A stretch of 64,000 nt of DNA from Gautieria morchelliformis (Eukaryota; Basidiomycota; Agaricomycetes; Gomphales; Gomphaceae), in NCBI GenBank assembly GCA_015179125.1, contig WHVA01000003.1:124001-188000 (forward strand). Direction: 5' to 3'. Under the pieces are notes generated by a model. That model was not told the origin of the DNA. It was given only the letters and a program-made list of their open reading frames with translations, and did not search any database. Positions within the stretch are counted from its first letter, which is position 1. The number at the start of each line of letters is the position of its first letter. Below, piece by piece: positions 8,460 to 57,985 of this stretch. Made by a program: the position numbers and the translations under genes.

Positions 8460-11400
8460 TGGCTGGCAATGCTCAACCACTTGCTCCCTCCAGGTCCAAC
8501 ACAACTGGAATCGCCACAGAATGCCTCCGAATCGTTGAGTGCAGGCGTTCTGGGGAGATCACCACCGCCGATGCCTCTTTGCTCTTGTCTCCTTCCCAAT
8601 GATGGACCGGGTGAATCCACGTACAAGCGATACCCCAACCTTTGTGCAGAAATTGACTGTGAGCATGCCGTCCCTGCCGCACGAGGTGGAACCAGGTCCT
8701 CGTTCACAATTAACACACGCCAATCAGAGCGACCCCGCAGCAGGAAGTGACCTGCAGAAAACATCATGGACAAATCATCTTCAGACACAGACTCCAACCA
8801 TATGGGCTAAACACCGACATCCGGAGCCTGAAAGTGAAGATAATGCGGGAAGAGGGCAGAAGAAACTTGATATCTCCAAACTCACATGGAACCTGTTCCC
8901 TGAGTCCATGCTGCTCGTTGACCCATGCGTTGCGAAAACACTGTCTCTCAAGGCCAATCACCTCGTCAACCTGAAAGCAGAGAAAAATAATCTCCTCGCC
9001 TGACTTGATTGCTCAAACCTCCCTGAGTCCTTATGGCTCAACGTCCTTGCCAACCAATAGGTTGACTTGGACAAAATCTACTCAGGATACTACTCCCTCG
9101 AGTCCAATTACCAACTCACGGAGTCAGTGGGAAACGTCAACATCACGCTGTCATCAGGAAGCGGTGCATCCAAACCAACTAGGAGGGTCGAATCCCACAG
9201 AGATTGGTTGATCACTTTCGCAGTCGCCAAGAAAGCCATCCTCTACATCTATCCACACCGAGCAGACAAGTTCACACAATACAAAGAGTATAATCCTTGG
9301 GAAATTCCCCGCAATGCACCACCCCAGGGAGCAACACAAAGTACTCAACCTGGATAAGGCCATCCATGTTCAAGTCACCCGAGACAACAAACTGTCCCTC
9401 GCCTCCTTTAACAAATTTGCAGACCTCTCCACCAAGTATTTCGTCTTGCAGCAAAGCACCTATTCAGGAGAGGTCAAACACTTCCAACCCACCATTGGAG
9501 GTATCCTGCCTATTTGCAGGTGATTCAATGAAAAGTGGTGCATGAGTAAATCCTGCAAGTACCGACATATCTGCTCAACCTGCTCTGGAAAACACCCAGC
9601 CAGAGATTGCGCCAGCGTCCAGAAAGGAGAATCCACGAAGTGAAGCAAAGAACTCAAAATGGGAGCAACCTCAATGGACTCATGGTTTTGTGTGGTCCTC
9701 ACAGCCTGTATCAGTCTGTCCCTCAGCTGCCTCCATGGAGCTTTGCCTTCCGTTCCCCCTTCAGTCCTGAATGACACTGCAGCTCAACAAACCATTTCTG
9801 ACAATCCCAACCTTTTCAGAATCATCACTCCTATTCGTATTGATTGGTTCCAAGCTCTCCTTCATTCGCATCCCAAACGTCCCCTAGTTGATTCCATGTG
9901 TTGAAGTCTCAGGGAAGGAGTCTGGCCTTTTGCCTTTCCTGATGAGTCCGCCCCAGTTACCTTTGATTTTTCTCAGAGAGGGATCAGCAATGCCAGACTC
10001 GATTTCTTGCGAGAGCAACGAGACATCGAGATCCATGCCGACCGTTACTCCCCCTCTTTCAGAACTGATCTCTTACCTGGAATGTATAGCACCCCAGTCG
10101 GAGTGGTTCCAAAACCTCACTCTGACAAATTTAGACTCATCAACGACTTGAGCACAGGACCACATGCCCCCAATTCCTGGATAGCTCACAACGACTATTC
10201 TGTCTGTTTCGACAATTTACAGGATTTCAGCTCGATCTTGCCCAGCATCCGCAATCATTGCAAGAAGCCCCCCGCCTGGCTTTTCAAAGATGATGTGTCT
10301 GGCGCCTACCGCCACTGGCCCATCCGCCCATTGTGGCAAATCAAACAGATCATCACCATAGATGGACAGTGTCATGTTGACTGATGCATGGAATTTGGCA
10401 CCCGCAGCGCCACTCACATCTGGTGCCTTTTCATGGGACTCGTCACATGGATTGCTATCCACATGAAAGGCATCACCGATCTTCTGCATTACATGGATGG
10501 TGCCTGGTCCCACGACCTTGACCCATCCCTCTACCTATACGAAGCTTACAGTGAACGCTATCCAGCTAAGCAAGTCCTCCTTCTCTGCTTGTGGGACGAA
10601 TTGGCTTGCCACACAAGAAACCCAAGCAAACCTTTGGCAAATTCTTGCGCATCATCAGTTTCGACGTCGACCCCCATAACATGTCAATTTCTTTCCCTAC
10701 CGACAGTAAAGAAGCACTAGTAGCGGTGATTCATTCCTTCACACATGCGTCAGTCTCTCATCCTGCCCTCTCGTCCACTGGCAATGACTCTTAAGATGGA
10801 TCAACTGGTCCCTCAACATCTTCCCACTCTTGCATCCTGCCCTGCAATCTTCCTATGCCAAGATTGCAGGCAAATCCATCCCCAAAGCACCCTGCATCTC
10901 AACCGCGCCATCATCTCCCACTTGAATTGGCTCACCGACACCATTGCCACCTCGAGTGGCATATGCCTTCTTGACTCCATCGCCTGGAGCACATCCGAAG
11001 CAGATCTAACCATCTTCTGCGACGCTTCTCTCAACGGCCTGGGATTCTATGTTCCTCAGCTTAGCTTGGCCTTCTTTTCTCCTGTCCCTCATCTGCCCCC
11101 TTCGTTCCATATCTTCTTTTATGAGGAGTTATCTGTTGTGTCCACACTTGCTTACGCCGTCACGCTACATCCCCCGCCGACTCCTCATCTCCACCGACTC
11201 CATGAACACTGTCGACATTTTCCACTCTCTGAAAGCCCACAATGAATACAATCACCTCCTCATGTTCACCATCCGACTCCTCCCACACACAACCTCCCTC
11301 AGAATCTTCCACATTGCAGGTGCCGACAACACTGTCGCTGATGCCTTGTCCCACGGACCTTTCCACATCGTGTCAGCCATTCACCCTGACCTGCACATCC

Positions 11401-12435
11401 ACCCTTTCAAACCCCCTTGGGATGCGATGGGGGCAGTCAAGTGATGCTACAACCAATAACATGGAACCAGCAACCCTTTCATGTTGCCTCGTCTGGGGAG
11501 AAACTCTTTCACAAGCGTGCCATCGCACTTGGCCACTCCATAGAGCTCTCCACTGTCCACACCTATAGTTCCCATTTGCAGTCCTATCTCAGCTTTTGTA
11601 AACTTCACGATTTCCCTGTCGAACCTACTTCCGACACCCTCAGCTATTTTGTCATGTTCTTGTCCCACCATATCAAGCCTTCCTCCGTCGCTGCCTACCT
11701 CTCCGGTATCTGCAACTGTCTTCAACCTCACTTCCCTGACTTCTGCGCCGCTCGCAACTCTGCTATTGTCGCACACTGCCTAGCTGGCTTGAAAAAACGA
11801 TGCGCTTCTCCCCCTCCACACCAAAAACGCACTCTATCTTCTGAAGACCTTTCCACTCTCCTTCGCACTTACCAATCTGACTCACACGACAACCTCTTAT
11901 TTCTATCCATGCTTCTCCACCCTTCTTCACCTCGGCGAAATGATCGTGTAGAACTCCCCCGCCAAATGCTCATCGAAAAAGATTACTGCCCGCCACACCC
12001 TCTCTCTCCAGCACAAGCAGTTCTCTTTTCAACTCCCCTATCACAAAGCCGACAGATTCTACCAGGGCAGCACAATCATCGTCCTAGCCAAACTTACTTC
12101 TCCTCTCAATCCCCTGCCCCTCATGTCCCACTACCTATCGTCCCGCGACTCCCTCTTTCCTTTCCACCCCAAGTTGTGGCTCACCTCTGCCGGTTTCTCT
12201 CCCACCTCGTCCTGGTTCACTTCCCGGCTTCGCCCCATCCTTGGTCCTGACTTCGGCGGCCACTCCCTGCGTTCCGGCGGTGCCACTGCCCTCGCCCTCG
12301 ACGGGGTGCCTGACAACATCATTCAAGGTATGGGCCGTTGGTCCTCCGACACCTTCAAAGTGTATATTCGCAAGCACCCCGTCGTTCTTCACACTCTCAT
12401 CCACGGCCCGCCCTCCATCAATCCTTCCTAAACCT
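8460..12435 (+). mobile_element. Fossil tyrosine-recombinase retrotransposon (DIRS/Ngaro-like)
   Basis: Three parts in order on the plus strand. A gag-like region lies at about 8460-9640, ending in a Cys-rich patch. A reverse transcriptase/RNase H region lies at about 9670-11430, with DVSGAYRHWPI near 10300, WSHDLDP near 10510 and an FCDASLNGLGFY RNase H start near 11015. A tyrosine recombinase lies at about 11417-12431, with the catalytic C-terminal block GGHSLRSGGATALA near 12255 and GMGRWSSDTFKVYIRKHP near 12330, i.e. the H-x-x-R ... W ... Y signature. RT plus tyrosine recombinase and no DDE integrase defines the DIRS/Ngaro order. The copy is broken at many points (roughly six or more). 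Terminal repeats were not identified. Confidence 0.85.
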
Positions 12436-15252: not shown

Positions 15253-16903
15253 CTAGGCCTTCGTGGTGCGCTTTGTGAAGATGATATTTAAATCGTAAGG
15301 CTGGTTGATGTTCGTGCCGAACGCGAACCCGTTGTGAATGCGGTCACGATGAATCGAGTCTTTCGGGAGCGTCCACTCGTACTCCTTGAGTAGGATTGTC
15401 ACGATGGTTCGCAGCTCCCACATCGCAAAGTTCTTCGCCGGGCACTGCCTCGGGCCCAGACTGAACGAGGACGCGACGAGGGTATGTAGGACCTGACCCG
15501 TCATGAACCGCTCTGGGTCATAGTGCTCGTTGTCCGCCCAAGTGGCCTCCACATGGTGCGACGCGTATATATTGAAGGCGACGAGTGTGTTAGGAGGGAT
15601 GGGGAACTTGCCGAGCTGAGTTGGTATCCCGGCAGCACGCGGTAACGTCGCGTTTGAGGGGTCGTTCATGCGCATCGCCTCCTTAACACACGCGACTACG
15701 AAGGGCATGCGTACGATCGACTCCGAGTCGGGCTCTTTGTTGTCGCCGAGGACCGAGAGAACCTCAGCGCGGGCTGTTGCCTGGTGCTGAGGATACTTCG
15801 CAAGGTAATAAATCGAAGATGCGAGAGCGCTCGAAGTAGTGTCCTAGAACACTCTTGATTAATGAGGACGAGCGCGAATGTTAAGGAAACTCACATGGCC
15901 CGCGATGAACAAAACGACCATGTTATCCAGAAAGTCCGTTTCTGTGAATGCCGGCTCTTGAAGCATGGCCGAGATCACGTCGTCACCAGAGCTCTTACGC
16001 TTGTGCTGTAAAACCTCGCTGAAGAAGGAACGGAGCTTCTTCATCTCGGACTCTACTTCATGACGAGGCCAGATCTTCTCGAGAAAAGGCATAAACATAT
16101 ACGCTGGTTGCGTGAGTGCATGTACCACACGCGTGTATCCATTAACGAAGGGCGAATCGGGATTCTTGATGGCCTCGAAGTCGTAGCCGAGAATTGTCGC
16201 GCCCAGGACTTCAAGGGTGACACGCTGTGCCATTTCGTCCCATTTGATACTCTTCGTCCCATCGCCAATCGTCGCCACGAGACGCTGCGCGACGGCGGCG
16301 AAATCAGAGAACGGCGGGGGGCGCTGTAAAGCCGCATGAACGGACTTGGCGTGCAACTTCCATTCTTCGCCTTCAGTAAATAGCACATTATGGCGGCCTA
16401 CGAAGCGCCAGAATAACGAGTCCTGCGACGGGAGCTGCCTGGTGTACGCCGGATCTTTCCAGGTCTTCTGTGCCACCTGTATGACCAAAATATTCAGTAG
16501 GGTTACCAGGGAGAGGATTCCGACCTCCCTTGTGGTCTATAATGTGAACGACCCAGAGACCAAATGCCCAGACCAGGACGATAGGGTGGCCGTGCTTGTT
16601 CGCAAAGGGAACAACAATCCTTTGCGTGCGTCGATCCTCTGACTCTCCGGCAAGATAGCTTCTCAAAAGAGGAATTAATGGTGCTCTAGGCAGATGAGAG
16701 AGATTTCTGGGGACGATGAAAGGCCGAACAATCAAGAAGAGGAAGGCAGCAGCAACTACATAAAGTGCAATGGATGACGTTTTGAGGTTGGTAGCGCCAA
16801 TGAATGGTTTTGTCCAGTCTGCGCTGGCTGGCGTCAAATGTAAAGTGCTGAAGTTATGAGCGAAAGCCCAGTATTGGCGAAGGTCGGGCATCTTGTACTC
16901 CAT
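15253..16903 (-). CDS. Cytochrome P450 with terpene-synthase-like leader; first donor site lost
   Basis: Heme-thiolate monooxygenase of the left arm of the terpenoid cluster. Exons (minus strand): 16903-16529, 16476-15895 and 15843-15253, about 515 residues. Visible motifs: one membrane helix (residues about 45-62), the I-helix AGHDTTSSAL (across intron 2), ExxR as KEAMR, PERF, and heme ligand FSLGPRQCPAKNFA. The downstream P450 at 24.7 kb is a close paralogue with identical intron positions. Two oddities. Residues 1-35 match the N-terminus of the terpene synthase at 22.9 kb (both start MEYK, then PDL, YWAF and SADWT) and are absent from the paralogue. The 5' splice site of intron 1 (16528-16477, 52 nt) reads AAG|GGAGGT where the paralogue has AAG|GTAGGT, so normal splicing looks impossible; a cryptic GT four bases on would shift frame. 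It may be a recent pseudogene or a sequence error. Family is sure, activity is not. Confidence 0.85.
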
Positions 16904-16955
16904 TTCTAAGTGTGGATGGAGAAAGGTGTATAGGGGGTTCTAATCTCCCCATGGG

Positions 16956-16963
16956 TCTTTATA
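16956..16963 (-). promoter_or_regulatory. TATA box of the left P450, shared with the terpene synthase
   Basis: TATAAAGA on the minus strand, about 55 bp before the ATG. The surrounding text (a CCATGGGGA block downstream of it and an A/T run upstream) aligns with the same region of the terpene synthase promoter, so the promoter as well as the leader appears to be duplicated. Confidence 0.6.
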
Positions 16964-18060
16964 CAACTAGTGAGCCGAGAATGCTTTTTTCGGTGGAATT
17001 GGACAGCGGCTGTTGCCGAATGACGGACGAGCATCAATTGCGGTCAGGGAGGAGGCCTCAATATCGTACCAGACGCTCCGGGGATACGGACTAGATAGTA
17101 CCTGAGGGTGGCGGGTACCGGCATGATATATGTTGCTCACTACTATAGTTAGTAAGTGCCCCGGTAGGCTACCGCAGTCCTCGACCCTTAACCAGTAACG
17201 CTGCCTAAAGCTGCCGGTGATAAGCACAACCGACGCTCAGGTGAAATTGACGAGTCAACGTCGGCGCCTGACAGACTATATATATCCAGATGCTTTATGG
17301 CCAGTACCAGAGTCCGCGCGCGGACACATGTTTTGATTGATACGGTAGTCTGGCTTGATAAGGGGGAAAACCTTAGAAACATTGTCAGCGTATATGCGAG
17401 CATAATTTTTGCTTGCTTGTAAGTCCTGGCCACAAGTGAAACAGCAGTACTATCATACCAATCACATTGCGCTGCACATAAGTTTTCGGCGCATGCACAC
17501 AAGGATGTACAGGCTGGCGTACTTCGCAGCATTTGTGCGCACGCCTACACTTACACTTCTGCACGAATGTACATAGCGTCATTCCGAATTAGCAAAGTGT
17601 GTAATCGTCAAGTGGTGTGTAATGCCACTGCGAACCTAGCCGGGGAAGAGGTCAGGGCTATGAGGTAATTAAAAAGCAATTCTTGTGATAAATCTGAGGT
17701 GAGAATCAGTGCACACGTTGTTTCCGTCAGATAGCCTAGTAGGTAAGTTAATCCCAACGCTGATTGATCGGCTAGAAGGACGGGCGGAGTCAAATTGAGG
17801 CGGCGCCAAACCAGCTGCGGTCACATTGTATGGGCTTGCCGACGGCTAGTATCCAAGTAAGCCGTGTTGACTACTCGGGGCGAAGTTAGTAATGTAGGAT
17901 TTTCAGGTGCGAGTGCGTCATAGTACTTAAGCACCCGATTGGGGTCCGATTTTCTTAGCCCTGCTTGGCTTGTTCCAGCTGTATATCAATCTCAGATTAC
18001 CAGTGAAACTTGGTCCAGTCGTCCGTATAACGATACCTCACAGGTCGTACCTGAACAATC
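16964..18060. other. Divergent intergenic region between P450 and reductase
   Basis: About 1.1 kb without a supportable gene; it must hold the promoters of both flanking genes. Nothing further could be assigned. Confidence 0.5.
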
Positions 18061-19233
18061 ATGTCTGTCATCCCCACCGCCAGAGCTCCAAGGACTCCCC
18101 TAGGCATCCACCGTATTCTTAGCTCTCGGTGTGGCCTCCGCGTTTCGCCACTATGCTTCGGTGCCATGGCCATCGGAAACGCGCACGGTGCCTTCATGGG
18201 CAAAATTACCAAAGACGAGGCATTTAAGCTGCTCGACACGTACTACCAGTCCGGGGGTAACTTTATCGATACGGCCAACAACTACCAAGACGGAGAGAGT
18301 GAGGAATGGATTGGCGAGTGGATGGAGTCGCGGGGTATCAGGGACGAAATTGTCATCGCCACCAAGTATACCATGAGCCACAGGCAGTTCGAGATTGCCA
18401 AGAGTGAGCATGGAATCGGTTCTAATTATGGGGGCAATCATACCAAGTCCCTCCATCTTTCTCTCCGCGACTCTCTCAAAAAGCTCCGCACCGATTATGT
18501 CGATATTCTCTACGTCCATTGGTGGGACTATACTACCAGCATGGAGGAGATGATGCAGGCGCTCCATACCGTCGTCAAAACGGGGAAGGTATTTTACCTT
18601 GGCATCTCTGACGCGCCAGCCTGGGTCGTGTCAAAGGCGAACCAGTATGCCCGAGACCACACTCTCACTCCATTCGTCATTTATCAGGGCCTCTGGAATG
18701 TTATGGTCCGTGATTTCGAGCGCGACATCATTCCCATGTGTATCGATGAAGGGCTCGCCATCGCACCCTGGGGGCCTGCAGGACAGGGCAGGTTCAAGAG
18801 TAAGGCTGAGGTCGCCGAGCGCGAACGGAACAACGAGCGCATCCGTTCCTACACCGCCGAGGCCCAATCGCCGCTCGAAGAGACTATATCTGCTGCCCTC
18901 GAGAAAATTGGTAATGAGGTTGGCGCATCGATCACTGCCGTGGCCATTGCCTACTGCCTACAACGCTGCCCATACGTCTTTCCCATCGTCGGTGGGCGCA
19001 AGATCCCGCACCTGCTTGACAATATTAAGGCACTCGATATAACGCTCTCCGAGGAACAGGTCAAGTATCTGGAATCGCAATCGCCCTTTGATCCAGGCTT
19101 CCCGTACAGCATCTGCGGCACGGATCCCCGTCGCTTTGGACAGTCGCAGTTCGTCATGCAGTCCGTTTACCTTAACCTTGACTGGGTTAAACATACCCCT
19201 GCGGTGTCCAACTCGCCGTTGGGCAAGAAGTGA
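18061..19233 (+). CDS. Aldo-keto reductase (norsolorinic acid reductase / aryl-alcohol dehydrogenase type)
   Basis: NADPH-dependent cytosolic oxidoreductase that interconverts aldehydes or ketones and alcohols; 390 residues in a single uninterrupted exon. The AKR catalytic tetrad is visible: Asp in FIDTANNY, Tyr in NNYQDGESE, Lys in IATKYT and His in LYVHWWD. The C-terminal cofactor region (GLAIAPWGPAGQGRF, then FPIVGGRK) is intact, and length fits the fungal NorA/AAD-like subfamily. It lies between a P450 and a terpene synthase, so a tailoring role in the same terpenoid pathway is likely, but the substrate cannot be read from sequence. Start chosen at the first in-frame ATG, which gives the usual short pre-barrel leader. 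Confidence 0.9.
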   Translation: MSVIPTARAPRTPLGIHRILSSRCGLRVSPLCFGAMAIGNAHGAFMGKITKDEAFKLLDTYYQSGGNFIDTANNYQDGESEEWIGEWMESRGIRDEIVIATKYTMSHRQFEIAKSEHGIGSNYGGNHTKSLHLSLRDSLKKLRTDYVDILYVHWWDYTTSMEEMMQALHTVVKTGKVFYLGISDAPAWVVSKANQYARDHTLTPFVIYQGLWNVMVRDFERDIIPMCIDEGLAIAPWGPAGQGRFKSKAEVAERERNNERIRSYTAEAQSPLEETISAALEKIGNEVGASITAVAIAYCLQRCPYVFPIVGGRKIPHLLDNIKALDITLSEEQVKYLESQSPFDPGFPYSICGTDPRRFGQSQFVMQSVYLNLDWVKHTPAVSNSPLGKK

Positions 19234-21732
19234 GTGAGGGGCGGGAAGGAGGTGTAGCAAACGAATCTAATGAGGGATGGTAGTTGGACCGATGAAGTCT
19301 CAAAGGTGTCTCGAAGGCCAAATCGTACTAGACCGTCTCCATGGAAAGCTTTACTGTCGGGCTTGCTATGCGGAAAGTGTTTTCTGTAGATACTTTTTAG
19401 ACAGCTTGGTTGGTGTGGATGTATATGGACAACAACCAGTGGCCGCCCTATGCTTGTCGTGGTCCAGGGCCGAATGGTCCAGGTGTTACATCATTCGCAT
19501 GGGCCCAAGTATTACTGTAACCCGCAGCGAAACTATGTCTGAATTACATGCGCATCGAAACCGCACTGATGTGGGATAAAATAACAAATCGCTGTCCTTC
19601 AATTCAAGAGCAAAATCTGAATGGGAATGATTAAGAACTGTACGAGTGGAATGTCCACAAGCTTGAAGCTTCTGATACGGAACAAATATACTTATGGTAA
19701 GCCCGTCGACTACTGTGATTTGAAACGACTCCCAAATTCGGAAATAGATAGTATAACTCGGTGGTTTGATCTTGAGCCATAAGTTCACCCTGGCCATCCT
19801 AATACGGTTATAGTTGCGGCAGTGCGGATAAGGCTGATGCTATATAAGTTACTGGTGAAACGGTTTAGTATTAAATTGTGTGAAAGTTAATATTTCTCAC
19901 AAGCCAGGGTTGTTCTGCCCCGATCTGGTTCAATCACCGTCACTAAATGTATCACTGCCTTTCAACTTAAAGGGGGAGAAGAACGGTGAGGTACGTAGCG
20001 AGCACTCCCTGAATCACCCATATGATGCAAATCATTCATTAAACTGAGCCCTTGGACTCTCCAATTGGAAGGGGATGTTGGGATTTAGGCGATAAGCCTT
20101 GAGCGGAGGCGGGACGATCTAGTAATAGTGTCTTTGTAATCTCGGTCATGCATGACTGAGAGTCTCAGATGTATCTATCGACAACCTGAAGTAGTTAGTA
20201 GTGCCTCAGTGAATTGTCCATTCATCTAGATACCAAGACAGATGGAGACTCACTGTATTCTGTCGCTCCTTCATGTCTAGGTAGGCCCCAGTGAATTGTC
20301 CATTTCACTGAGCTCCTCCGTCTCTAGCTACTGCGCCGGCCGTATCTACCAGGGGAAAACAACGAGGGTCGGGCTGCGAGTTCGGGATGAGGAGCGATAT
20401 TACATAATTATTAATGACTTCTCGCTAGTCGGACGGAAGTCAGCCCTCCTTTGTTCTGTCAATTTGTCGTCCTACAAGAGGCCTACAGATCCTCTCTCCA
20501 AGTTGCAGAAACATGGACGCAAATGTACTTAGGCAGCGTTCTAACTAGACGGCATTTCGCCGATCCTGATTGCTGACTTGAGCGGAAAAGCATGTGGCCA
20601 CTTGCACGTGGCGATCATTCCGAGGGCGGAGCAGCATCCGAACCCGCATTCGCATGGCCCTGGTGCCGGGCCGAGAAGCGTCGGAGTTTGTGGTCCCCCT
20701 GAATTGTCATCAATTATCGATCATCACTCTCGATCGATCAATAAGACCCTTCTGGGATGTGAGAATACCGTGGAAAATCTGACACCTTTTGCCGAGGTTT
20801 CTCCGCATATTATGCAACCGCGTATTATTGTCCCTCTGCGTCGTGGTCGTTAGTGGTCAGGGTCTTTCTTCAAGGTCTTTCATTAATCCCTCTTAGTGGT
20901 CTCCGGTCTTTCTTCTATATCTCTCCTTAATGACACGCCCTCGCTTTTTATTCGTAGCCTTGTGCGTCGGCCATCCATCTTCTGTTCGCAATTCCACCTG
21001 TACATGTCGTAGTTGTTAATGGTCAGGGTCTTGCTTTAATGGTACAGCATGCCTGTCTACTGCACCGATGTAGCCTTCAAGTCTGAGTATTCATGCCTGT
21101 AAAGTATGTACACAATGGCGAGACCTGCTCCCCGAGGCCGCGTTCACTGTTACATACTATTGCGAGCATGCAAGGGTTCTGCCGAGTGCAAGCCGGCCTT
21201 TCCTCTAGTTGTCGAAGTCAGTCCCAAATAATGACGTCTACTTATACACATGGCTGCCAAAGAGCATAGCGATGCATCCTGGTTCTGGATAATGAGCAAC
21301 TCCAGGTAACTAAGCATAGCGCGTAACAGTTACATAACCACAACCCAGGTTACCCCCGCTCACTCGCGCCACGCCTCCTCCCAAGTTTGTCACATTTCCT
21401 ATCTTTCATTTGTGAATACGATGCTACGCGTCACTGTAGCATCAGGGAGGGAGAAGCAATCAGAGTGCTCGCTAGGTGGCGATGGTCCACTCTATCTATA
21501 TGCCAGTCATGGAGGAATGTCGTACGCAGCCACCCCTGGCAGAGGAATAAAATCTTTTCAAATCGGTATTTTCTACTTTCTTTTCGCACAGCAGGATTTT
21601 ACTTGATTCCATGCGATCTCCATTCCCCTCTTCACATCAGTGTTGAGTACATGATCCAGATGGGATTCCAAAGAAGTTAACACAGTATACAAGCATAGCT
21701 AAACTAAATCTATGCCTTTAGCAGTCTAAGCC
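19234..21732. other. 2.5 kb intergenic region inside the cluster; no gene seen
   Basis: Frames here are short and without motifs. A phrase CAGTGAATTGTCCATT is repeated at about 20209 and 20290, and GGTCAGGGTCTT recurs near 20857 and 21023. No transcription factor or transporter could be found in this gap. Confidence 0.45.
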
Positions 21733-22901
21733 TCAAGCAGCGACGGCAACCTGAGCGTTTGCCGGCCTCAAGAGAACCTTTCCGGTCTCCTTCACTGTCT
21801 CTATCTCATTTCCAAAGAACCGCTTGCTTCCGAAGCTCCACTCGTAGTTCGCAGTGACCCAGTTACCGAGTCCGTAGACATATTCCTTCAGCTGGTCCCG
21901 TGTCTTGATGTCGGGACACTCCGGCAGGTCGGTCATTGCTCTCATGAACTCATTGGCGCGATTGTGGTACCATCTGCAGACGTAGTCCATCCCCTCCTGA
22001 ACCGAGAAATTATACTGGTTCATGACAACAATGACTGCATTGTGAATGTCCCCGCGGGCCTGCTCCGCGTTGAACGACACGATGTCCTATAGTGCACACC
22101 AGTCAGCGACGTAGGCCGTCCAACTGGCAAAATTTCTTACGTTTGCGACAGCCACCATATCGATTGACATGAACTCGAGGTCCACGATTCTCTGGTCGAG
22201 TAAAACGGAGTCTGGGATCTCCATCGGCATCAACATGAGGTCGTACGATGGCTTGATGGCCCCGGTGAAACGCCTCAGGGTCAGATAGTCGTCAATGTTC
22301 TTGCGAATAGTAGTATTATTTCGGTCCTCGGCTTCAGCAATGACGGCGGTGACATAAGCCTCGTAACTCTTTATGAATCGTCGAGCTACAGTTTTACTTG
22401 ACACCTTTAGGGTGCGGGACCAGAAACTGTCGATAAATGAGTCAGTCGGTACCCAAGACCATCGATATGCTGCGCACCTCCTGTGGAGCTCGCCTATCGG
22501 GTGCTCCCCTTCGGGGCGTTTCTTTTCTGGGTTCCTAAGATCCCAAATTTCAGTCGCGATCCATTATTTGTACAAAATAAAGCGCACCTTAAAGCGTCAA
22601 GGGCAATTTCAGAAACAGAGCGTACTTCCTCGGGGCTGAGGACGTCTGTCACGTCGTCCATGGCAAAAAGAACATTCATCAGATCGCAGGCCTGTCGGAG
22701 CTGCTCCTTCGTGTGGTGAGGATACGCCAAGGAAGCAAGTAGTCCGACGTTGATTCCCCGGAATTTTCGAGCATGCGCAGGAGAGAAGATATTGAATGAC
22801 TCGGTCCAGTCTGCGCTCACTGGCGTCACCTCAGAGTGCCAGGGGCTCATGATACGAGGGAAGGCCCAGTACTTGTGAAGGTCGGGGAGTTTGTATTCCA
22901 T
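21733..22901 (-). CDS. Terpene synthase (sesquiterpene cyclase type, class I)
   Basis: Class I terpene cyclase acting on a prenyl diphosphate, probably farnesyl diphosphate, in the cytosol. Exons (minus): 22901-22588, 22534-22141 and 22086-21733, giving 353 residues, the normal size for basidiomycete sesquiterpene synthases. Both metal-binding motifs are intact: the aspartate-rich motif FAMDDVTD near residue 80, and the NSE triad NDIVSFNAE, whose Asn and Asp lie on opposite sides of intron 2 (22140-22087). Introns are 53 and 54 nt with GT-AG ends. The C-terminal WSFGSKRFFG segment contributes the conserved RY-like region in modified form. It is the core gene of the cluster with two P450s and a reductase. 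The exact product cannot be predicted from the sequence. Confidence 0.92.
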
Positions 22902-22975
22902 GGCGAGGTGATCGAGTGGAAGAAGCAAAAGTACACCGGAGGATGTAGTTATCTCAGGATCCCCATGAGTCCGAC

Positions 22976-22983
22976 TCTTTATA
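22976..22983 (-). promoter_or_regulatory. TATA box of the terpene synthase
   Basis: TATAAAGA on the minus strand, about 75 bp before the ATG, inside a roughly 60 bp block that aligns with the promoter of the left P450 (16940-16990). Confidence 0.6.
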
Positions 22984-22989
22984 CTTCTC

Positions 22990-24707
22990 GCTGAGAATAT
23001 TTTTTTTGATAAATCCGTGAGCGCCGGTTTGGCCGTGCAATCGCATTTTCCAAATTGCATTTTTGAGTTTTCAGCAGAACAGGCGGGAAACTTTGTGTGA
23101 TTTGGCCATAACAGCAGGACCAACTTCGGGGATCCGATGCGATCTTGCAGGCATGATGAGTCACCCTAACAAGTGCCATCACGGTGACGTGCGCAGGGGT
23201 CCTCCCCTCCTGCTACTGAAGCCACAAGTCTTGGCCATTAAGCATTCTGTGTGGATCCTGTATATAGCGGCCATTACGCCAGAGACAACGGAGTGCGAAG
23301 GGCAATCCAATGATTGCGATTGCGAGCAGTTCCGGTGGCAGTATTGAAAAAAAAAACGGGAGTACTACGCGTTTGAGAGATCAGTGGTTTTCTCAGCGAA
23401 TGGGTAAGCCGAACAGTCAGAAGATCTCACGCAACTTAGTCGATGACTTCATGCAATGTTGTGGGCAAGTACAGACGCCAGGCACGGCGGTGTAAAGCAA
23501 GGCGGGTCCGGGGTAGTACCGGGTAGACGGACTCAGTGAACGGTGTCAATTCATCCGCTGCGAAAATTAGCATTGATCAGCCATGAACATCTCGCAGATG
23601 GCACAGCTCGTGTCAGCGATTCACATCCCCGTTGACTCCTTTACAAAACGGACCCGCCTGACCTCCGCTACTGTTATTATCGGACATCAGGAGTTTGAAA
23701 CCGCCTTCCCTAGCAGTCGCACCACGCCCGATATCAATCTCAGTAGCTATAATTGAAGGCTATAGACCCTTTAACAAGGTTATGAAAGCAAAATATCAGA
23801 TCACGCTTGTGACAGGGAAGTAGGCATGTCAAGACTCAGTACTCAACAACCAAGTATACATCTTGATGAATTTTGTAGAGCTCAAATCTTTAGTATTCAA
23901 CTGTTATGAACAATGGTTCATTTTGTAGCTAAACTGCTTGAGGTCAGATGCGAGCGTAGTTCCAAACAGACGATAACCGATACTTAGTATAGTAATTGGC
24001 GCGCTCCGTGCCACAGCGTCAGCGCTTTCAGAAGATCAAGGGGGAAATAATAGGTTTGAAAGGAAATGCTTCAAAGGGAGAACGTTGCAGGGGCAGAATT
24101 TGTACATGCTATTTAGACTTTGGATTGAGAATTCGGCAGGTCATTTGTAGCGACAAGAAAATCTATACTTATCTACGAGCATCCCCGCTATCAAGTCGCT
24201 TGCTTATCTGCGTTTGCTTATCTGCGGAGATCTATGGCAACTTTATTAGGCCAAAGAGTGCTAATTTGAAATGTGCTGCATCAATCATCCACAGCGGAGC
24301 AGCTCAGGCATCAATCAATCTGAGTGCAACAGGGATGAGTTATGCTTACTAGTACATATTGCTTGCGATCCAACGTTACAGTGATTGGCGACCATTTTCG
24401 TGGAGCGTCACTTCCCTGCGTGCGATATTTTGAGGGCGTAATGAAATCAGGGTTGTACCGTTAGGAGCAGGTTATTGTTTACAAACTAAGGTAAGTCCGC
24501 CCGGCGCCGCCTCACTGGCGCTGTGACGACGAATGACGTATGTTTTCTGGATTTGGCGCAAGCCCATTTAGATGCTCTACGTTGTCTTTCCCGTCAGGGG
24601 TGGATATCCCGCAGGCGTCGTGTGTAATATGACTGTAAGTACAATATCTAGTGTGATCATGGTGTCGTTTTCATTCCAGAGTTCTCACCCCCCAACAGTA
24701 ATTTGGC
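22990..24707. other. Divergent intergenic region between terpene synthase and right P450
   Basis: No coding region supported. A probable 5' UTR intron of the right P450 lies at 24635-24679 (GTAAGT ... TTCCAG, 45 nt). An ATG at 24572 upstream of it is not in frame with the P450. Confidence 0.45.
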
Positions 24708-26229
24708 ATGTGGACTACTCTTTACGTCGTCCCCGTCCTCTTCGCGCTCCTGCTATACAAACTTTTCGTCGTGCCGCGGAGTCTCGCGCATATCCCCCGT
24801 GTCTCTGTCATTGCCCAGTTGAAAAGTTACATCGCTGGCGAATCAGAGGATCAGCGCATCAAACGACTCATCCTGCCTTTTGCTAATGAAAATGGGCACC
24901 CTATCGTTCTGGGCTGGATATTTGGCATCTGGATTGTCCATGTTATGGATTACAAGGTAGGTAGTTCATGCCTTTCGATTGCATTCATAGAATAATTTAT
25001 TCTTGATCAGATTGGGCAAGCTGCATTGAAGGATCGAGCATGGGTACGGCAACTCCCACCACAAGACCTCATGCTTTGGAAATTCGTTGGTCAAGCCAAC
25101 GTAGCCTTCACCATCGGCGATGTCTGGAGGAGACATTCAAGGATCGTTATCAAGGCTCTTTCCGGCTCTCCGCCTTTCGCTGACTTCTCGCTCATGGCAC
25201 ACAAACTATTCAGTGTTCTCGGAAGCGGCACGAAGACGGTCAAGTGGGACGAACTCTCTCAGCAGGTCACTTTGGACATCCTCGGCACGACTGTTCTTGG
25301 ACACGACTTTGAGGCGATCAAGAACCCTGACTCACCATTCGCAAGGGGATACCGCCATGTGATGCATGCGCTTACCGAGCCTCCTTACGTGTTCTTGCCC
25401 TTCCTCGACAAATATTTTCCCCGTCGTGATGTAGAGCAGGAGGCGCAAAATCTACGGAAAATCTTCAGTCAAATCATCGAATATAAGCGTACGCACCTCG
25501 CGGACGATCTCATCTCGCACATGATTTCGAACCCCGAGTTTTCTGACTCTGAATTATTGGATAATGTGGTTGTGTTGTTCGTTGCCGGTCACGTTTGTTA
25601 TTTCATTCATTATGTTTTAAAACCGATTTTAATCACGGCTGCCTCTCTAGGACACGACTTCAGGCGGGCTGGCGTCCGTTGTGTATTACTTAGCCCGGAA
25701 TCCCGACTGCCAAGCAAAGGCACGCCAAGAGGTCCTGTCCGTGCTAACCGATGGCAAAGATCCCACCATGGACACCGTGACGCGCCTTCCATACGTCTTT
25801 GCTTGCATCAAAGAAGCGATGAGGATGAACAACCCCTCGAACGGGACGCTCCCACGGAGTGCTGCTGTGCCCACGCAGCTGGGCAGCTACGCGATCCCCC
25901 CAAACACGCTCATGATGTTCAACATCTCCGCTGTGCACCATCTCGAGTCTGAGTTCAAGGACCATGACCGCTTCGACCCTGAGCGGTTCATGGTTGCCGC
26001 AGACGACAACACGCCTGTCGCGTTCTTCGGCCTCGGGCTGAGGCAGTGCCCTGCGAGGAACTTCGCTATGTGGGAGCTCCGCACGGTTACGGCGCTACTT
26101 CTGAAGGAATACGAGTGGTATCTGCCGAAGGCGTCGCCCCACGAGCACCGCGTGCATAACGCGTTCTCGTTTTCTACCAATCTGAATCTTCCCCTTGACT
26201 TGGATATTGTGTTCACGAAACGGCAATAA
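24708..26229 (+). CDS. Cytochrome P450 monooxygenase, intact paralogue
   Basis: Exons 24708-24956, 25011-25592 and 25651-26229, 469 residues, with 54 and 58 nt introns at the same places as in the left P450. Layout: an N-terminal membrane anchor directly after the start (LYVVPVLFALLLYKLFVV), the I-helix AGHDTTSGGL (across intron 2), ExxR as KEAMR, PERF in FDPERFM, and the heme-binding FGLGLRQCPARNFA. All splice sites are canonical and no break was seen, so this is the likely functional P450 of the cluster. It should sit on the ER membrane and oxidise the terpene skeleton with electrons from a P450 reductase encoded elsewhere. The chosen ATG gives an anchor but no terpene-synthase-like leader. 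Confidence 0.92.
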
Positions 26230-27329: not shown

Positions 27330-27862
27330 TATCAGGGGACACCCTGTTTTCCATTTCCAGTTCTGACTCCACACCCAGTTCCGACTCCATTTCCGACTCT
27401 GGTTCTGGTTCCGGTTCCGATTCCATCTCCAACTCCACTTTCGGAAATGATTCCGCTTCTGGAAGAACTTCCACCAGTTCTGTTCGCCTTACCAATTCCA
27501 CTCCAATTTCCGACTTCCGCTCTCAGAACAGTGTCGGAAGTCAAGCGACTTGCATAATAGGTGGCATCAAGGGTCGATCAAGGGTCAGGGAGGTCAAGGG
27601 AATGCATGGTAGATGGCGGGTGCCAAGTGTTGGCCCTGACTGCGCAGCATAGTATAATATGGGCTCGCTGACATTGGGGGTCCTTAGACTTTTCTCTTCG
27701 GATTTCCCCTTGTCAGGTGAGAATCCCCTCTCTTGTATACTCTGTTCATTTATACATACTTCGGATTTCCCCTTGTCAGTTGTGTGGTAGCGTGATCTCC
27801 ACAGCCAGCTAGGGTTGCCATTACAAGTGTGATCTCAGTGACTAGCAAGGGCTGCCCTTACA
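27330..27862 (+). mobile_element. LTR copy, family TGTCAGGGGAC...CCCTTACA, with an extra LTR tail
   Basis: 27330-27835 is a near full LTR beginning like TGTCAGGGGACACC and ending GTTGCCATTACA. It is followed at once by a second family tail (27836-27862, ending GCTGCCCTTACA), which suggests insertion of one LTR into another or LTR-LTR recombination. No internal coding region remains. This is a fossil LTR. Confidence 0.7.
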
Positions 27863-29955: not shown

Positions 29956-32900
29956 CTCCCCCTTAAGCTGAACACACTCCAATGGATATTCGAAGGCAAG
30001 CGAGCTGCGGAGATGGCAGGGCCTTCGTGAGCATGTCTGCCGGCATGTCAGCGGTGGGGCAGTAGTCAATGGAAATCAGGCCGTGCTTGACCACATCATG
30101 GATGAAGTGGTACCGTACGTCAATATGCTTGGTGCATGCCTTGTACTGGTCATTCTTCGAAACTGATATTGCTGATTGGTTATCACAGTACATGGTGACG
30201 GGCTGTATGAGAGGACGGGTGATTTCGGCGATGAACATGCGAATCCACAGGCCTTCTTTCGCTGCGTGAGTGGCAGCTATATATTCTGCTTCCATCGTAG
30301 ATAACGCGATGATGGACTGCTTCTTTGAGCTCCAGGAAACGGCACCTTCGTCTATGGTGAACACATAGCCGGATATCGAATAACGATGGTGCTGTGAAGC
30401 TCCATCGGCATCCGAAAACCCTTCGAGTCCGGTGTGTTCTTGTTTTCCTGGCTTCGCCCATGTCCATGGATTCTTGACACCGATAACTAACTTTTGGTCG
30501 ATCGTCCCTTTCAGGTAATGAAAGACTCGCTTCACCTCTTCCCAATGAGGTCGCCCCGGGTTCTGCATGAATTGCGACAAGAAGGTGACGGCGAACATGA
30601 TGTCTGGCCTCGTTCCGAGGGCTGCGTACATTAGGGATCGGATGGCCTCGCGGTACAGGACTCCCTGGACGGCTTCATAGTGGTGCGGCATGACAGGGCA
30701 TTGAGCTAGGCTCAATTTGTGATGCAGGTCAAGTGGGGTCGATAGGCCCTTTGCATCTTGTAGTCCAAATCTTTCCAGTATTTTTGTTATATATGTGTGC
30801 TGCAAGAAAGATATAGTTCGCGCGTCCCTGTCTCTTGTGACTTCGATGCCTAGTATCCAGTGTAGGTCACCTAGGTCCTTGATTTTGACCTCCTGGCTAA
30901 GTTCCGACTTAAACTCGCAGATGACCTCTCTCGAGCTTCCAGCGATGGTCATGTCGTCAATGTCTGCAGCAACAAATAGACTGTTATTGTCCTCATGCTT
31001 ACAAAAAATGGCGTGTTCAACCCGGCATCTCCTAAACCGGAGTTTGAACATGATTGCGCACAGGTGGTCGTACCACTCGTGTCCAGACTGTCTCAGTCCA
31101 TAGATCTCTCTTTTTAGGAGGAATATGTGGTTCTCTTTGCCTTGAACCTCGTATCCTCTGGGCTGGCGCATGTAGATGGTCTCCCTCAGCCGTGCATTGA
31201 GGTAGGCTCCTTCCACATCTGTCTGCTCCAATTCCCAATCATTTCTGACCGCCAGAGCCGTCATGATCAGGATCGCTGAGAGCTTCGCTGTCGGCGCAAA
31301 GGTCTCATTGCAGTCTATGCCTTTGACTTGCGTGAACCCCTGGGCGACGACCCTGCTTTTGCGGCTGACAAGGTTGCCGCTCGCGTCGTGCTTATAGTGG
31401 AGAACAATCCAACTTCCAACGATGTTCACGTCCTTAGGTGGCTCTACCAGTTCCCAGGTACCCACCTCTTCGTGCTGTTTTAGCTCTTTTTTTATTGACG
31501 CGTCCCATTCTAGCCAATCGTCGAGTCTCTAGGCTTCCTCAATGTTCTTGGGGTCATTTCCCGCGCTTTGTGCTGCCATCATCGCATACTCCATATACTC
31601 CCCCTCGATTTCGACGTCGTCACAGTCTGAATCGACGGTGTACTCGGAATCATGGAGGGCTGCGATGGCAGCGGTCTCCCTGGAGTCCCTGCTCGAGTTC
31701 TGGATTGGGATCAGCATGCCTCGTGGATATAAAGGTGCGTTCGCACGTCCGGAGCTCATGCCTTGGCCCTGAGCCATATCGCGGACATACGCTGACAGTT
31801 TGCGTAGTCTATGTCCACGCCCTTGCTCGAGTCCCATTGCAGGTTCAGGCGGCTCAAAACCTTCGAGCGGGTCTACTTGCGGTGTTTGTGGATGCAGAGG
31901 TAGCTCTTCGCTGGTATCTTCTTGAGGTAAGTTGTGACTTTGGTTTGGAGCAACACGCTGACTGCGCTGTGTGCTCTCCCCCTCGTTCTCGGCCGATACA
32001 TCACTCGGACCAACGGTGACATTATTGTCAAATGCAATATTGTGTTCGTCTGTCACACATTGTTTCCCCGGCCAATAAACTCGGTGAGCTTGACTTTGCC
32101 TGCTATATCCAACCCAGCGTCCTTCATCCGCCTTCGCGTCTAGTTTCCTGCAATCCTCCTTTAATACCCAGACCTTGGCGCCCCATTCCGGTAAGTTTGA
32201 CAAATCCGTCTTTTTATTGAACATGAACTCATAGGGGGTTTTCCCATCCAATTGGTAAGTGGATGTGCGGTTTTTGAGCCAAACTGCGCGCTGAATTGAC
32301 TCCGACCAAAGGAACTTGGGTAGATCAGCTGCATAGTGCATGGCACGTGCATGCTCTATCAATGTGCGGTTCAGGCGTTCTGCTATGCCGTTCTGTTCAG
32401 GCGTATCATGGACGGTAAGGGCTTCGGATTATACCTTTCAACTTCAGATGATGATCAAACTCCTCGGATAGATATTCTCCCCCTCGATCGCTTTGAAGTC
32501 GTTTGACTTTCCCGCCATGCTGTGTCTCTATCCAAGCCTCGTACTGCTTGTAGCAAGTAAGTACTTCGCTTTTTCTTTTCATTGGTTCGACGCGTGACCA
32601 ATGAGTGAAATCGTCAGTAAAACTGATGAAGTATTCCCTCCCATCATAGCTCTGAGGTGTGGTAGGTCCCCATACATCGCTGTGTATCTTTTCGCTGAGC
32701 TTTGTAGCTCGCGGCCCTATTCTTTCCCTAGGGATGGGCTTGCGCATCATCTTCCCTTGCACACACGATGTGCAGAACGTAGGTACACTCTTCTTGTCTA
32801 CTTCAATGCCAGTGATGACACCTCTAACTAAGAGGCTCTTTATGGCGCGTGGGGAGATGTGACCCATCCTGCGATGGAGCTTGTCGATGGTGAGGACCTT

Positions 32901-34269
32901 CTGCACGGCGTTGGCTGATTCCATAGATGATCCATGTTCCACCTTATACAGTCCATCTCTGAGTGGTATCCTGCCCACAGTCATACCTTTCACATCTTGG
33001 ATCGTGCAATGCTGGTCGTGTAGTAGTACAACGAATCCAGCTTTATCACATCGCACTAGCAATATTAACGTGAATGCCAAGTCCTGGCAATAAAGTACGT
33101 CCTTCAGCATTATGTGAGTCATTGTTTTCCCTTTCAGGATGACAACACACATGTCTCCAACGCCGGTCGCAGTGAAGATCGTCTGTTCGGCCGTGGCAAT
33201 TCTACGGGGTGGGATTTCCTTGAAGGTAGTGAAACGATGGCGATCCAGGGACATGTGAGTCGAGGCTCCCAAGTCGTAGACATCAACTTCGGTTCCTTTG
33301 TGCTTGCTACTCTCCCGAGAGAGTATGTGACCGGCAAATGTGGTGGTGAAGGCCCACTCGCTGTTCTCGGTCACAGCATTTACTGACTCGCTCCCCTTCT
33401 TTTTATCGCCGTCCTTCTCCTTTTTTCCTTTTGATCTACAATCAGCCTTTATATGCCCCTTTTTTCCGCATTTCCAGCAATCAATGTCTGACTTCCCGGC
33501 ATTGCTAGAGCTGTCGGTATGTCTGCCTTTTCCATGACCCTTCGCAACTGTGAGTGCACTCTCGGTAGCCTTAAGCTGCCGTTCCTCTATCTTGAGCCGT
33601 TTGAACTCGTCGAGTAGACTCTGGACAACCATATCAGGTGTGAGTGTGAGTTGCGCGTGCGTAGCTGACAACAAGATAGCATTGATGAGTGGTCGGTACC
33701 CTTTTGGCAATGATCCTAGAATCATGGTGACGAGGTCGTCGTCGGTAAGGCCTGCATCCATCCCAGCTAACTGCTCTTGCATTTTCATGAGAGCTTCGAG
33801 GTGGGTGCGAACATTCGACTCATCCTCACACTTCATCTTGTACATCCTGTGCCGTATATCGACCTTGACCGTGAGAGCTCTACTCTCGTGCTTTGCACAT
33901 ATCGCCTCCCAGATTTCCTTCACTGAACTGAGCTTCCGAACCTCTATCAAGAGTGAGTCCGGTATTGTCGTGAAAATCTGTGCAGTAATTAAGGCCTCGC
34001 GTTGGTGATATTCATCCCAACGCTTCTCTGCCCTCTTGAGTGCCTCCTCCTCGTCCTCATCCAGGACCTGGTTCGGAGGGTACATCGGGATCGGGGCTGG
34101 TAACCGAGCTGTGCCATCGAGGTGTCATAGCACACCCTTGTTTGCCGTGAGGGTAGCCCTCGTCTGTATCTTCCACGTTACCCAGTTCGACCCATCCCGG
34201 GTGAGCTTGGGAACTGCGAAGGACTTTGCGCCGCTGGTAGGTACTATACTATCAATGGGGCCCATAACC

Positions 34270-45516: not shown

Positions 45517-47451
45517 ATGTTGAACACACTGAGCAAACGCTTTTCCGGGATGGTTGACAAGGCGCTGAAGGGTCAGTTGAACGAGATAGTCAGCGAAGCA
45601 AAAGATGTCACTAATATGAACCCCGCGCCGTCCCTAATCATTGATGCAGGGGATGTGCATGACGGCATCGCTGCCACCAGTGGCACCAGCACTGTCAAGC
45701 CGACAAAGGCGGCTTGGGATCCCCTCTTGCACAATATCGAGCTGTTTAAAAACGCTGTGGATGGCATACCAGAGGTAATCACGCCGTCAGCCTTCCCGCT
45801 CACTTGATAATGACGCATGACCTGTTTCTAGATCCGTATTGATGCAATAATGGCATCGTCCGTCTTGTCCAGTGCGCACGAGGTATATCTATCACTTGCA
45901 CCGACTGGGTAGCCATATCTGATATCTGGGTCAATTATATGCAGAGGATAATTGCTCAGAAGGACGGGGTCGATGCTATCAACAGGCTTGCTGAGAGTAT
46001 CGGAGACACGTACGCGTTCGTCCCCTTGGCAGAGCCGTTGAAGAGAATTGCATCGCAAAAGTCAATTTTACTATCCTTGACGATCCAAACGATAGAGTGC
46101 GCCTACTTTATCCATGACTACGTGAAAAACAAGGATCTATGTATGTTATCCCATTATGTCAGGCGGCGATAGTCCTTGTTGACCTTTGTTCAGGGAAGCA
46201 AACCGTGAAGAATCTAGCGTCGAATGTTGACAACAAAGTCAAGCAATATCAGGCTACGCTCAACAAACTCGGTTTGGCGATACAGAAGCAGGACGTTTTT
46301 ACAGACATACCTCTAGTATGTTTTCCCCAAGTTGTGGATTTCTGTGTGTTTTCCGATTTGGGGCCCTTCCCGAGGCTAATACAGCTTGTAAACAGCCTGG
46401 GAAATTCAACCGAGTGGCATGGTCTACGAAAGAAGAAAGTTCCTTTTGTCGGCCGTTAGACAATTCCAGGACGAGTTCAATCAACACCAGTTAGTACTAC
46501 AAGACTCAGATGCCGACACGCACACCATGCGTGTTGCGGATGCACTCCTGGATGCTGCCCATGACCTCCGTGTGTTTTCCGATTTTAATACCATTCTGAG
46601 ACTAATATGCCTTGCAAACAGAAGTAGAACTTGCCCTCAATGACATGCCATATGCAGCAGCCCGGTTTGATGCGGATAAAGTGTGTCGGCAAGGTACTCG
46701 GGAACAGGCCCTTATTGAGATCTGTGATTGGGTTAACCAGTATAGCGATGACACCACCCCCTGTATATTTTTCTTGAATGACGTTGCGGGTGCCGGCAAG
46801 TCTGCCATTGCGCACGAGGTTGCTCGACGATTTGATAGGCTACAACGCCTCGGGTCGTCGTACTTTTTTGACCACGCTCTTCAGGCAGAACGTTCCCCCG
46901 AAAATTTATTCAGCACGATCGCTCGTGATCTAGCTGATATCGATCCAGAACGAAAATCATCGTTATTCGGAGTGGTTCGGCAGAGGCGAGAACTTCGGAC
47001 TACACGCTCTCCTCACGTACAGTTCCAGAAGTTCATTCTAGACACTGGTCATGGGCCAACTAATATTGGACCCATCGTGATCGTCATTGACGCATTGGAT
47101 CAAATGGGAGGAGATGAGGAATCTCGCGAGGCTGTCTTGTCTGTGCTTGGCGACGAGACACTGGCAGGAAAGCTGCCGTCTAATTTCCGCATTTTTGTGA
47201 CAGGTCGTCCAGATGAAAAGATTGTCGAGGCCCTTGTTGGGAAGGAACACGTGCTTTCTAGGGGCATAGAGGTTATCGATTCAAAGCCTGCCTATGACGA
47301 CATTTGTCATGGTGGCGGCGTCTACCACGAGCGTGACGTGGCCACTTATGTAATTTACTGTAGCCCACGTTCGCGCATCATGGGCTGTCCGTGCTCAAAC
47401 CTCACCTATGTATTATATGTGACATTCATGTCCGAACCTTATCTACCATAG
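45517..47451 (+). CDS. NACHT NTPase (NLR-like), C-terminally truncated
   Basis: STAND-type NTPase of the NACHT class, which in fungi act in non-self recognition. Exons: 45517-45774, 45832-45882, 45945-46140, 46194-46343, 46396-46569, 46622-47451; about 552 residues. The first five exons give the helical N-terminal region found in mushroom NACHT proteins (AAWDPLLHNIELFKN, SSVLSSAHE, YAFVPLAEPLKRI, WKQTVKNLASN). The NTPase core has the P-loop FLNDVAGAGKSAIAHEVARRF (Lys codon 46798-46800) and Walker B IVIVIDALDQ near 47080. After about residue 495 (SKPAYDD) the sequence turns to unrelated text and stops; the WD40 or ankyrin domain expected in this family is missing. Start taken at the first in-frame ATG. 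Introns 4 and 5 are near copies of each other. It could encode a short receptor fragment or be a pseudogene. Confidence 0.82.
46344..46395 (+). repeat. Intron 4 of the NACHT gene, copy A of a repeated intron
   Basis: 52 nt, GTGTGTTTTCCGATTT... to ...TAAACAG, phase 1. About 39 of 52 positions match intron 5. Confidence 0.75.
46570..46621 (+). repeat. Intron 5 of the NACHT gene, copy B of a repeated intron
   Basis: 52 nt, identical first 16 bases and near-identical 3' half to intron 4, same phase. Confidence 0.75.
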
Positions 47452-48339
47452 ACATCTGCTCTTTACCCTCTGCTAGAGTGCAAACTTCCTCTCGCGCACT
47501 TATCTACGCCACCACCATTATACGGCGCAGCTACACAGGGACTACGGAAAGCAGTCGGTATTGCTCATTGGGTATCTTTATAGTTAAATTTTGTCCCTGC
47601 ATATTGTTCTGACACTACTTTCACAAGTCACGCTTGAATGGTATCACCTCAATACATTGTAGATGGCTATCTGCAAGCTCATCACACAATTATGATGTGC
47701 GACACAGGTAAGCCGTAGTTGACTTGAGTTTAGGGTCCGGATGGTCGTCGGCCACTGTCTATCTGTCGCCATTCTAGGAAACGCAGCTCTTAACGCCCCG
47801 CCCCCAATGCTACACACCCAAGGTATTTATTTATTTAATCTTATGAATTGCGTCCAAGCACGCTGCAGTCTGGGTCCTTGCCGCACCTGTCATCTGAACG
47901 AAGCACGTATTCATGGAGCTGTATCGCAGAGAATTGGTATTCACCTGCTAGTGCCCGCAGCACATTCGCGTGTCCGCCCGCTACGTCCAGACGGAGCCTG
48001 CTCAGTTGGATTTTCACGTAGAGGGCCTCTCTATGTGCAAACCCAACAGGGCAGCATTGGCCGCCCTCAAGCGAAACAAAGCTTGGTGTGGATTGTGATC
48101 CTTGCCATCTCCTTTAACAAATTGACAAGCAGTGGCCACTGCGTGTCAATTTGTCAAAGGAGATGGGAAGTATGGTCGGGATGCTGTTGATCAAATGGAG
48201 AAACTTTTGGTCAATAACCATGTGCTTCATTAACGCCATTATAATACTGCTGCAACTCAACCTGACTCGACTCGAATCCATAAATATCAGACTCGAATTT
48301 ACACAGTAAGACTCATTCAGCAACTTACGTCATTCAAGA
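47452..48339. repeat. Intergenic with dispersed repeat copy and strong palindrome
   Basis: 47806-48076 is about 85-90% identical by eye to 57708-57985 in the same orientation (shared words include CTATGTGCAAACCCAACAGG and ATTCATGGAGCTGTATC). A 62 bp near-perfect palindrome lies at 48105-48166. No gene supported. Confidence 0.6.
48105..48166. other. 62 bp near-perfect palindrome (hairpin)
   Basis: From the centre at 48135/48136 the two 31 nt halves pair at 29 of 31 positions. The outer arms read CCATCTCCTTTAACAAATTG on the left and its complement on the right. There is no loop: the middle is the perfect palindrome GCAGTGGCCACTGC. Confidence 0.85.
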
Positions 48340-57660: not shown

Positions 57661-57707
57661 AATGCACACCACTCCTTCAGGAAGACAGTCGGTATTGCTT
57701 ATTAGGT

Positions 57708-57985
57708 ACCAATGCTACCACCCAAGGCATTTATTTATTCTTATGAATTGCGCCCAAGCACGCTGAAGTCGGGGTCCTTGCCGTCATCTGTCATCTGAAT
57801 GAAGCAAGTATTCATGGAGCTGTATCACAGAGAATTGGAAAACAGCGGCATTCACCTGCTAGTGCCCGCAGCACCTTCGCGTGTCCGCCCTCTACGTCCA
57901 GACGGAGCTTTTCCAGTTGGGTTTTCATGTAGAGAGCCTCTCTATGTGCAAACCCAACAGGGTAGCATTGCCGCCCTCGAGCTCA
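57708..57985 (+). repeat. Second copy of the dispersed repeat found at 47.8 kb
   Basis: Direct-orientation copy of 47806-48076 with a few small indels. No coding motif; unknown element. About 235 bases of non-coding sequence follow before the epoxide hydrolase stop. Confidence 0.7.

Follow-up and report, generated by a model that had tools for sequence, protein, structure and literature searches.

How does a cytochrome P450 gene come to begin with the opening codons of a terpene synthase? This question is raised by a small gene cluster of Gautieria morchelliformis, which lies in a 64,000-nucleotide stretch of contig WHVA01000003.1 (the window). Four genes stand within 15.2-26.3 kb of the window: a left P450 (P450-L), an aldo/keto reductase, a sesquiterpene synthase, and a right P450 (P450-R), whose coordinates are collected in Table 1. 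A sequence-only reading of this DNA had proposed that a duplication placed the promoter and leader of the synthase onto P450-L. We followed up this proposal with alignments within the window and with searches of the 122-Mb assembly (1113 contigs, one genome). On the evidence below, we think it quite probable that P450-L is an old chimeric gene, which would have formed by a partial duplication that placed the 5' end of the synthase before the P450 membrane anchor.

Table 1. Features of the P450 and synthase locus, in window coordinates.
Feature	Coordinates	Strand	Basis or remark
Synthase promoter and 5' UTR, probable copy, 5' of P450-L	16904..17018	-	ATG-anchored alignment to 22902-23035
Synthase-derived leader, 35 codons including the P450-L start codon	16799..16903	-	Coding alignment, genome DNA search
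Junction, ~11 codons	16766..16798	-	Without detectable homology to synthase or P450-R upstream DNA
P450-L exon 1: leader, junction, anchor, first P450 part	16529..16903	-	ATG 16903
P450-L intron 1, 52 nt, donor GG	16477..16528	-	Placed via P450-R alignment
P450-L exon 2	15895..16476	-	Pfam PF00067 on exons 2+3, E 3.3e-61
P450-L exon 3: ExxR, PERF, and heme-Cys motifs	15253..15843	-	Pfam PF00067 on exons 2+3
Aldo/keto reductase gene, next to P450-L and divergent from it	18061..19233	+	Pfam PF00248, E 4.3e-74
Sesquiterpene synthase gene, 4 exons, 336 aa, leader donor	21733..22901	-	ATG 22901; PF19086, E 5.9e-40 (query included 17 intron residues)
Synthase promoter and 5' UTR matching 16904-17018	22902..23035	-	ATG-anchored alignment
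P450-R, leader-less paralogue, 469 aa, two introns with GT donors	24708..26229	+	PF00067, E 4.2e-58

Both partners in the proposed fusion are recognizable members of their enzyme families. The synthase carries the metal motifs DDVTD and NDIVSFNAE (at synthase residues 82 and 219), and among solved structures it comes closest to the Delta(6)-protoilludene synthase 8h72 (E 5.4e-62, again with the 17 intron residues in the query); its nearest solved relatives are suggestive of a basidiomycete. Two further synthase relatives, on contigs C260 and C206, are 31% identical to the window synthase; between their regions (8 kb each), 1.9 kb is 95% identical and another 0.5 kb is 87% identical, as would fit recent duplicates or alleles. 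P450-L has the makings of a membrane-bound cytochrome P450, with a PF00067 match, the motifs KEAMR, PERF, and FSLGPRQC, and an N-terminal hydrophobic anchor at residues 45-63. Exon 1 of P450-L gave no Pfam match on its own at E <= 10, and the start of the P450 part in this exon was recognized by alignment to P450-R.

The sequence-only reading had claimed that the left P450 opens with synthase-like codons, and the alignments bear this out. The P450-L N terminus, MEYKMPDLRQYWAFAHNFSTLHL--TPASADWTKPF, aligns with that of the synthase, MEYKLPDLHKYWAFPRIMSPWHSEVTPVSADWTESF, over 35 codons with a single 6-nt in-frame gap. The coding-only local alignment scores 273, against a mean of 88 (sd 15, max 141) in 300 dinucleotide shuffles. 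The nucleotide alignment of the two whole 5' regions that had been called for was likewise well above chance, with a score of 394 (shuffled mean 130, max 201, n=300), and it covers 16799-17018 on the P450-L side and 22791-23035 on the synthase side. A genome search with the DNA of 16800-18050 gave a single non-self match within the cut-off of E <= 0.01, at the 5' coding end of the synthase (72% identity, E 1.2e-8); this match covers 16903-16801 only, with the promoter outside it. At the protein level, residues 1-34 of P450-L are 62% identical to the synthase (E 2.3e-5). Among the direct repeats found within 14-27 kb, the two longest are both parts of the leader, which also contains a glycosylation sequon, NFS, at residue 17.

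The similarity continues upstream of the start codon. Here, the proper question is whether homology extends outward from the shared ATG, and we therefore prefer an ATG-anchored alignment to an unanchored one. The anchored alignment scores 121, against a null mean of 10 (sd 12, max 46), a score that none of 60 shuffles reached; it extends to 17018 in P450-L and 23035 in the synthase (115 and 134 nt, respectively), with 80 of 110 columns identical. The unanchored upstream-only alignment, in contrast, stays within chance (145, against a null mean of 108, sd 17, max 194, in 300 shuffles). On the anchored test, then, the claim that the upstream DNA also aligns is upheld, while its unanchored version fails. 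The motif TATAAAG stands 60 nt before the P450-L ATG (starting at 16963, and followed by CATGGGGA) and 82 nt before the synthase ATG (starting at 22983). The TATAAAGA..CATGGGGA pattern has three matches in the genome, and a reversed-pattern control has none; the pattern was derived from P450-L and the synthase, so two of the three are matches by construction. The third sits in an open frame that resembles a retroelement chromodomain, and we treat it as a chance match.

Could the shared upstream DNA belong to the cluster as a whole, or the entire similarity be accidental? The other five promoter pairs among the four cluster genes all align at chance level (anchored, 60 shuffles each), and this includes the pairing of P450-L with its divergent neighbour, the aldo/keto reductase, with which it has no promoter in common by this alignment. 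A cluster-wide shared promoter is thus ruled out, with P450-L and the synthase the sole aligning pair of the six. Chance or convergent similarity could appeal to the shortness of the stretch and to the unanchored upstream result, but the two genes align in frame, ATG on ATG, the coding and anchored upstream scores both lie beyond every shuffle, and the synthase was the one non-self match of the genome-wide DNA search at E <= 0.01. Together the shuffles and the search rule this explanation out, and we give it next to no weight.

Where the synthase similarity stops, a different gene begins. Synthase homology ends at about codon 35 and P450-R homology begins at the anchor, with a sharp junction between them, from which anchored extensions into the synthase and into the P450-R upstream DNA were both at chance level. 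Residues 46-125 of P450-L are 55% identical to P450-R, which lacks the leader, and the P450 parts align over 469 codons. P450-R itself starts with an ATG immediately before its anchor, nine bases downstream of an in-frame stop, and its Pfam P450 match begins at residue 65; the earlier statement that the paralogue at 24.7 kb starts directly at the anchor is therefore correct. In P450-L, the only methionines among the first 100 residues are residues 1 and 5, both within the leader. Since no other methionine precedes the anchor, an anchored P450-L must start in the leader, and the recipient P450 would have brought an anchor without a start codon of its own. P450-L thus combines donor 5' coding homology, an upstream continuation on the anchored test, and a remainder from a different gene beyond a junction, as expected of a chimeric gene.

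The direction of transfer, from synthase to P450, is well supported by these comparisons. The shared segment is the normal start of a synthase: among the matches listed, three solved synthases align with the window synthase from its residues 2, 3, and 4 onward. P450-R, in turn, lacks the segment. On these two grounds, the opposite direction, from P450 to synthase, is ruled out. The sequence-only proposal of a duplication that put a synthase promoter plus leader onto a P450 is well supported by the coding alignment, the anchored upstream alignment, the genome search, and the junction. In mechanistic terms, the alignments indicate that the synthase core promoter, 5' UTR, start codon, and ~35 codons would have been placed in frame before the anchor.

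A partial duplication is not the only way to reach such an arrangement. A whole second synthase may once have stood upstream of P450-L, with a deletion from codon 36 to the P450 start joining the two. The same orientation of P450-L and the synthase fits this history, as do the sharp junction and an upstream match that fades at 115-134 nt, as decay would give. Yet the synthase search near P450-L found residues 1-36 only, with no further synthase remnant, and a fragment elsewhere in the genome shows that 5'-only copies arise there: contig C417 carries, at 21098-21747, 650 nt that are 96% identical to the start of a synthase gene on contig C579 and comprise 320 nt from upstream of that gene plus its first 110 codons. 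A genome search (E <= 1) returned no further synthase match on C417. The copy stops where it meets a multi-copy element, presumably LINE-like by resemblance, and the same edge of the element is the start of 12 of the 49 listed matches to that element (best 40 of 1150 candidates). We therefore consider the deletion history somewhat unlikely. If instead the P450-L leader came by partial duplication, the C417 fragment suggests that 5'-only synthase copies arose at least two times in this genome.

The synonymous divergence indicates that the event is old. Synonymous sites between P450-L and P450-R are saturated (pS 0.77, dN 0.34), and the leader differs from the synthase with pS 0.56, dS 1.05, dN 0.22, and an omega of 0.21. 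The higher pS of the P450 pair (Fisher P 0.03 on rounded counts) argues that the P450s probably split first and that the leader arrived later, yet still long ago; this age and order of events rest on one genome and on a leader that holds 19.5 synonymous sites. The arrangement would then have persisted to a leader synonymous divergence of ~1, with the P450 part keeping its frame and its four motifs.

Has the leader itself been under selection? With the P450-side leader modelled as unconstrained, 16 or fewer amino-acid changes had P values of 0.000-0.023 at two fixed divergence times, and of 0.075-0.118 when the divergence time was left free. These values are no more than suggestive of purifying selection on the leader. 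One further idea is that the leader peptide has a function of its own, such as a tag for targeting or for binding a partner, which would bring P450-L close to the synthase. The low pairwise omega is in keeping with such a role, and so is the fact that upstream DNA and leader are still recognizable at a dS of ~1, but the selection test is not significant at free divergence time, and the predicted location of the leader is at odds with docking. In the standard P450 topology, an N-terminal extension lies in the ER lumen, and the synthase is presumed to be cytosolic. The P450-L extension would, under this usual topology, face the lumen, which makes a docking role unlikely; overall, we regard a functional peptide as very unlikely.

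The present state of P450-L is a separate matter from its origin. The donor of its intron 1 reads GGAGGT in the assembly, a defect that the sequence-only reading had overlooked, and the acceptor, ACAG, is intact. The equivalent P450-R intron, a phase-0 intron after ..DYK, has the donor GTAGGT, and across the gene models of both P450s and the synthase, all six introns apart from P450-L intron 1 have GT donors. With a GG donor, canonical splicing at the conserved intron 1, as a full-length P450-L would need, is not available. Retention of the intron shifts the frame and gives a 171-aa product without the heme domain, and the in-frame GT-AG alternatives use displaced sites (16506-16455, for example, replaces seven residues). 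Apart from the donor, the P450-L frame is open over 515 modelled codons, with no stop and no frameshift, and all four motifs checked are present: I-helix, ExxR (KEAMR), PERF, and heme (FSLGPRQC). The open frame and intact motifs imply that P450-L was maintained until recently, and that any loss is recent.

It is quite possible, then, that P450-L is now a pseudogene, i.e., a chimera that once worked until the lost donor ended production of a heme-binding P450, a reading that is compatible with a chimeric origin. The GG donor among six GT introns, the truncated retention product, and the displaced splice alternatives all point this way, but the otherwise open frame leaves room for a recent loss at most, and the donor would also be explained by one wrong base in the assembly or by non-canonical splicing. 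We found no second allele for the donor in the assembly, in which the cluster occurs once by protein and DNA searches. In sum, P450-L is today probably recently broken or unusually spliced, with a base error in the assembly as another possible source of the GG, and the current copy may fail to yield a full-length chimeric P450. The donor defect argues against present function of P450-L. A version of the chimera in which everything still operates, with P450-L firing from the synthase promoter and start, a selected leader at work, and intron 1 spliced non-canonically, seems improbable to us.

To the right of the cluster is a Copia-type retroelement on the minus strand (29963-34124), with three open frames and an RVT_2 match on 29963-31528 (E 5.4e-64). 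Reverse-transcriptase-like frames to the left are weaker, with an RVT_1 match just below the cut-off at 1780-2268. The open frames at 9888-12431 resemble a tyrosine-recombinase retroelement; the two frames tested there had no Pfam match. Just right of the cluster, at 27332-27825, a repeat of ~490 nt recurs at dozens of genome sites with 88-93% identity (best 40 of 3170 candidates). An NPHP3_N/NACHT-type NTPase gene with its flank (46000-48500) belongs to a large family with at least 100 matches (best 40 of 317 candidates), several of them on the same contig. Farther right, ~4.8 kb of the window (57351-62109), which includes a frame with an epoxide-hydrolase N-terminal domain (59498-59974), recurs near contig ends on C393 (97%) and C380 (96%). 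Protein and DNA searches found no cluster genes on these two contigs, and beyond the copy, a 10-kb stretch of C393 matches the window only at the repeated 210-834.

How the genes of a fungal pathway become jointly controlled is an unsettled matter, for which cluster-wide regulators are the usual answer. A promoter and start copied from the backbone enzyme to a tailoring partner would give a direct route to co-expression. In P450-L, the captured segment would drive the gene from the synthase core promoter and start its translation, and shared regulation of P450-L and the synthase seems likely. A chimeric protein may likewise be expressed. The event also shows that a P450 without its own start codon can be maintained with a foreign extension, and the recent 5'-only copy on C417 suggests that raw material for such fusions arises repeatedly.

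How does this arrangement compare with known systems? Work on protoilludene-type synthases and P450s, like this locus, places both enzymes in one pathway (PMC7778616, PMC6116744), and the available portions of these papers make no mention of a synthase leader on a P450. In the available portion of a fungal synthase survey, P450 is named in the reference list only (PMC10210940). Among the literature matches listed, the titles and abstract openings contain no description of a P450 carrying a synthase 5' end. Basidiomycetes do have synthase fusion enzymes: a review names HS-HMGS from Stereum hirsutum and A8411 from Steccherinum ochraceum (PMC9501842), in which, as in P450-L, sesquiterpene synthase sequence is fused in frame to another protein. 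As described in the accessible part of that review, these are tied to hirsutene synthesis and should therefore hold a working synthase. P450-L differs in that it has ~35 N-terminal codons with no catalytic motif, joined to a P450, and not a complete synthase domain with DDxxD and NSE.

The closest parallels in process come from animals. Chimeric genes formed by tandem or partial duplication are known in Drosophila and C. elegans, where, in the text available from these studies, the 5' end of one gene is copied together with its regulatory DNA and attached to a different gene, and control elements and an N terminus are shuffled (PMC5460883, PMC3449122). P450-L resembles these cases in both respects. 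Unlike them, its donor and recipient are two distinct enzymes from a single fungal terpene cluster, the recipient P450 lacks its own start codon before the anchor, and the event is old. The earlier statement that no described case of this exact arrangement is known thus needs to be divided. The process, a chimera made by partial duplication, is already known from animals; as far as the sources seen extend, it is the pairing of synthase and P450 that appears to be new.
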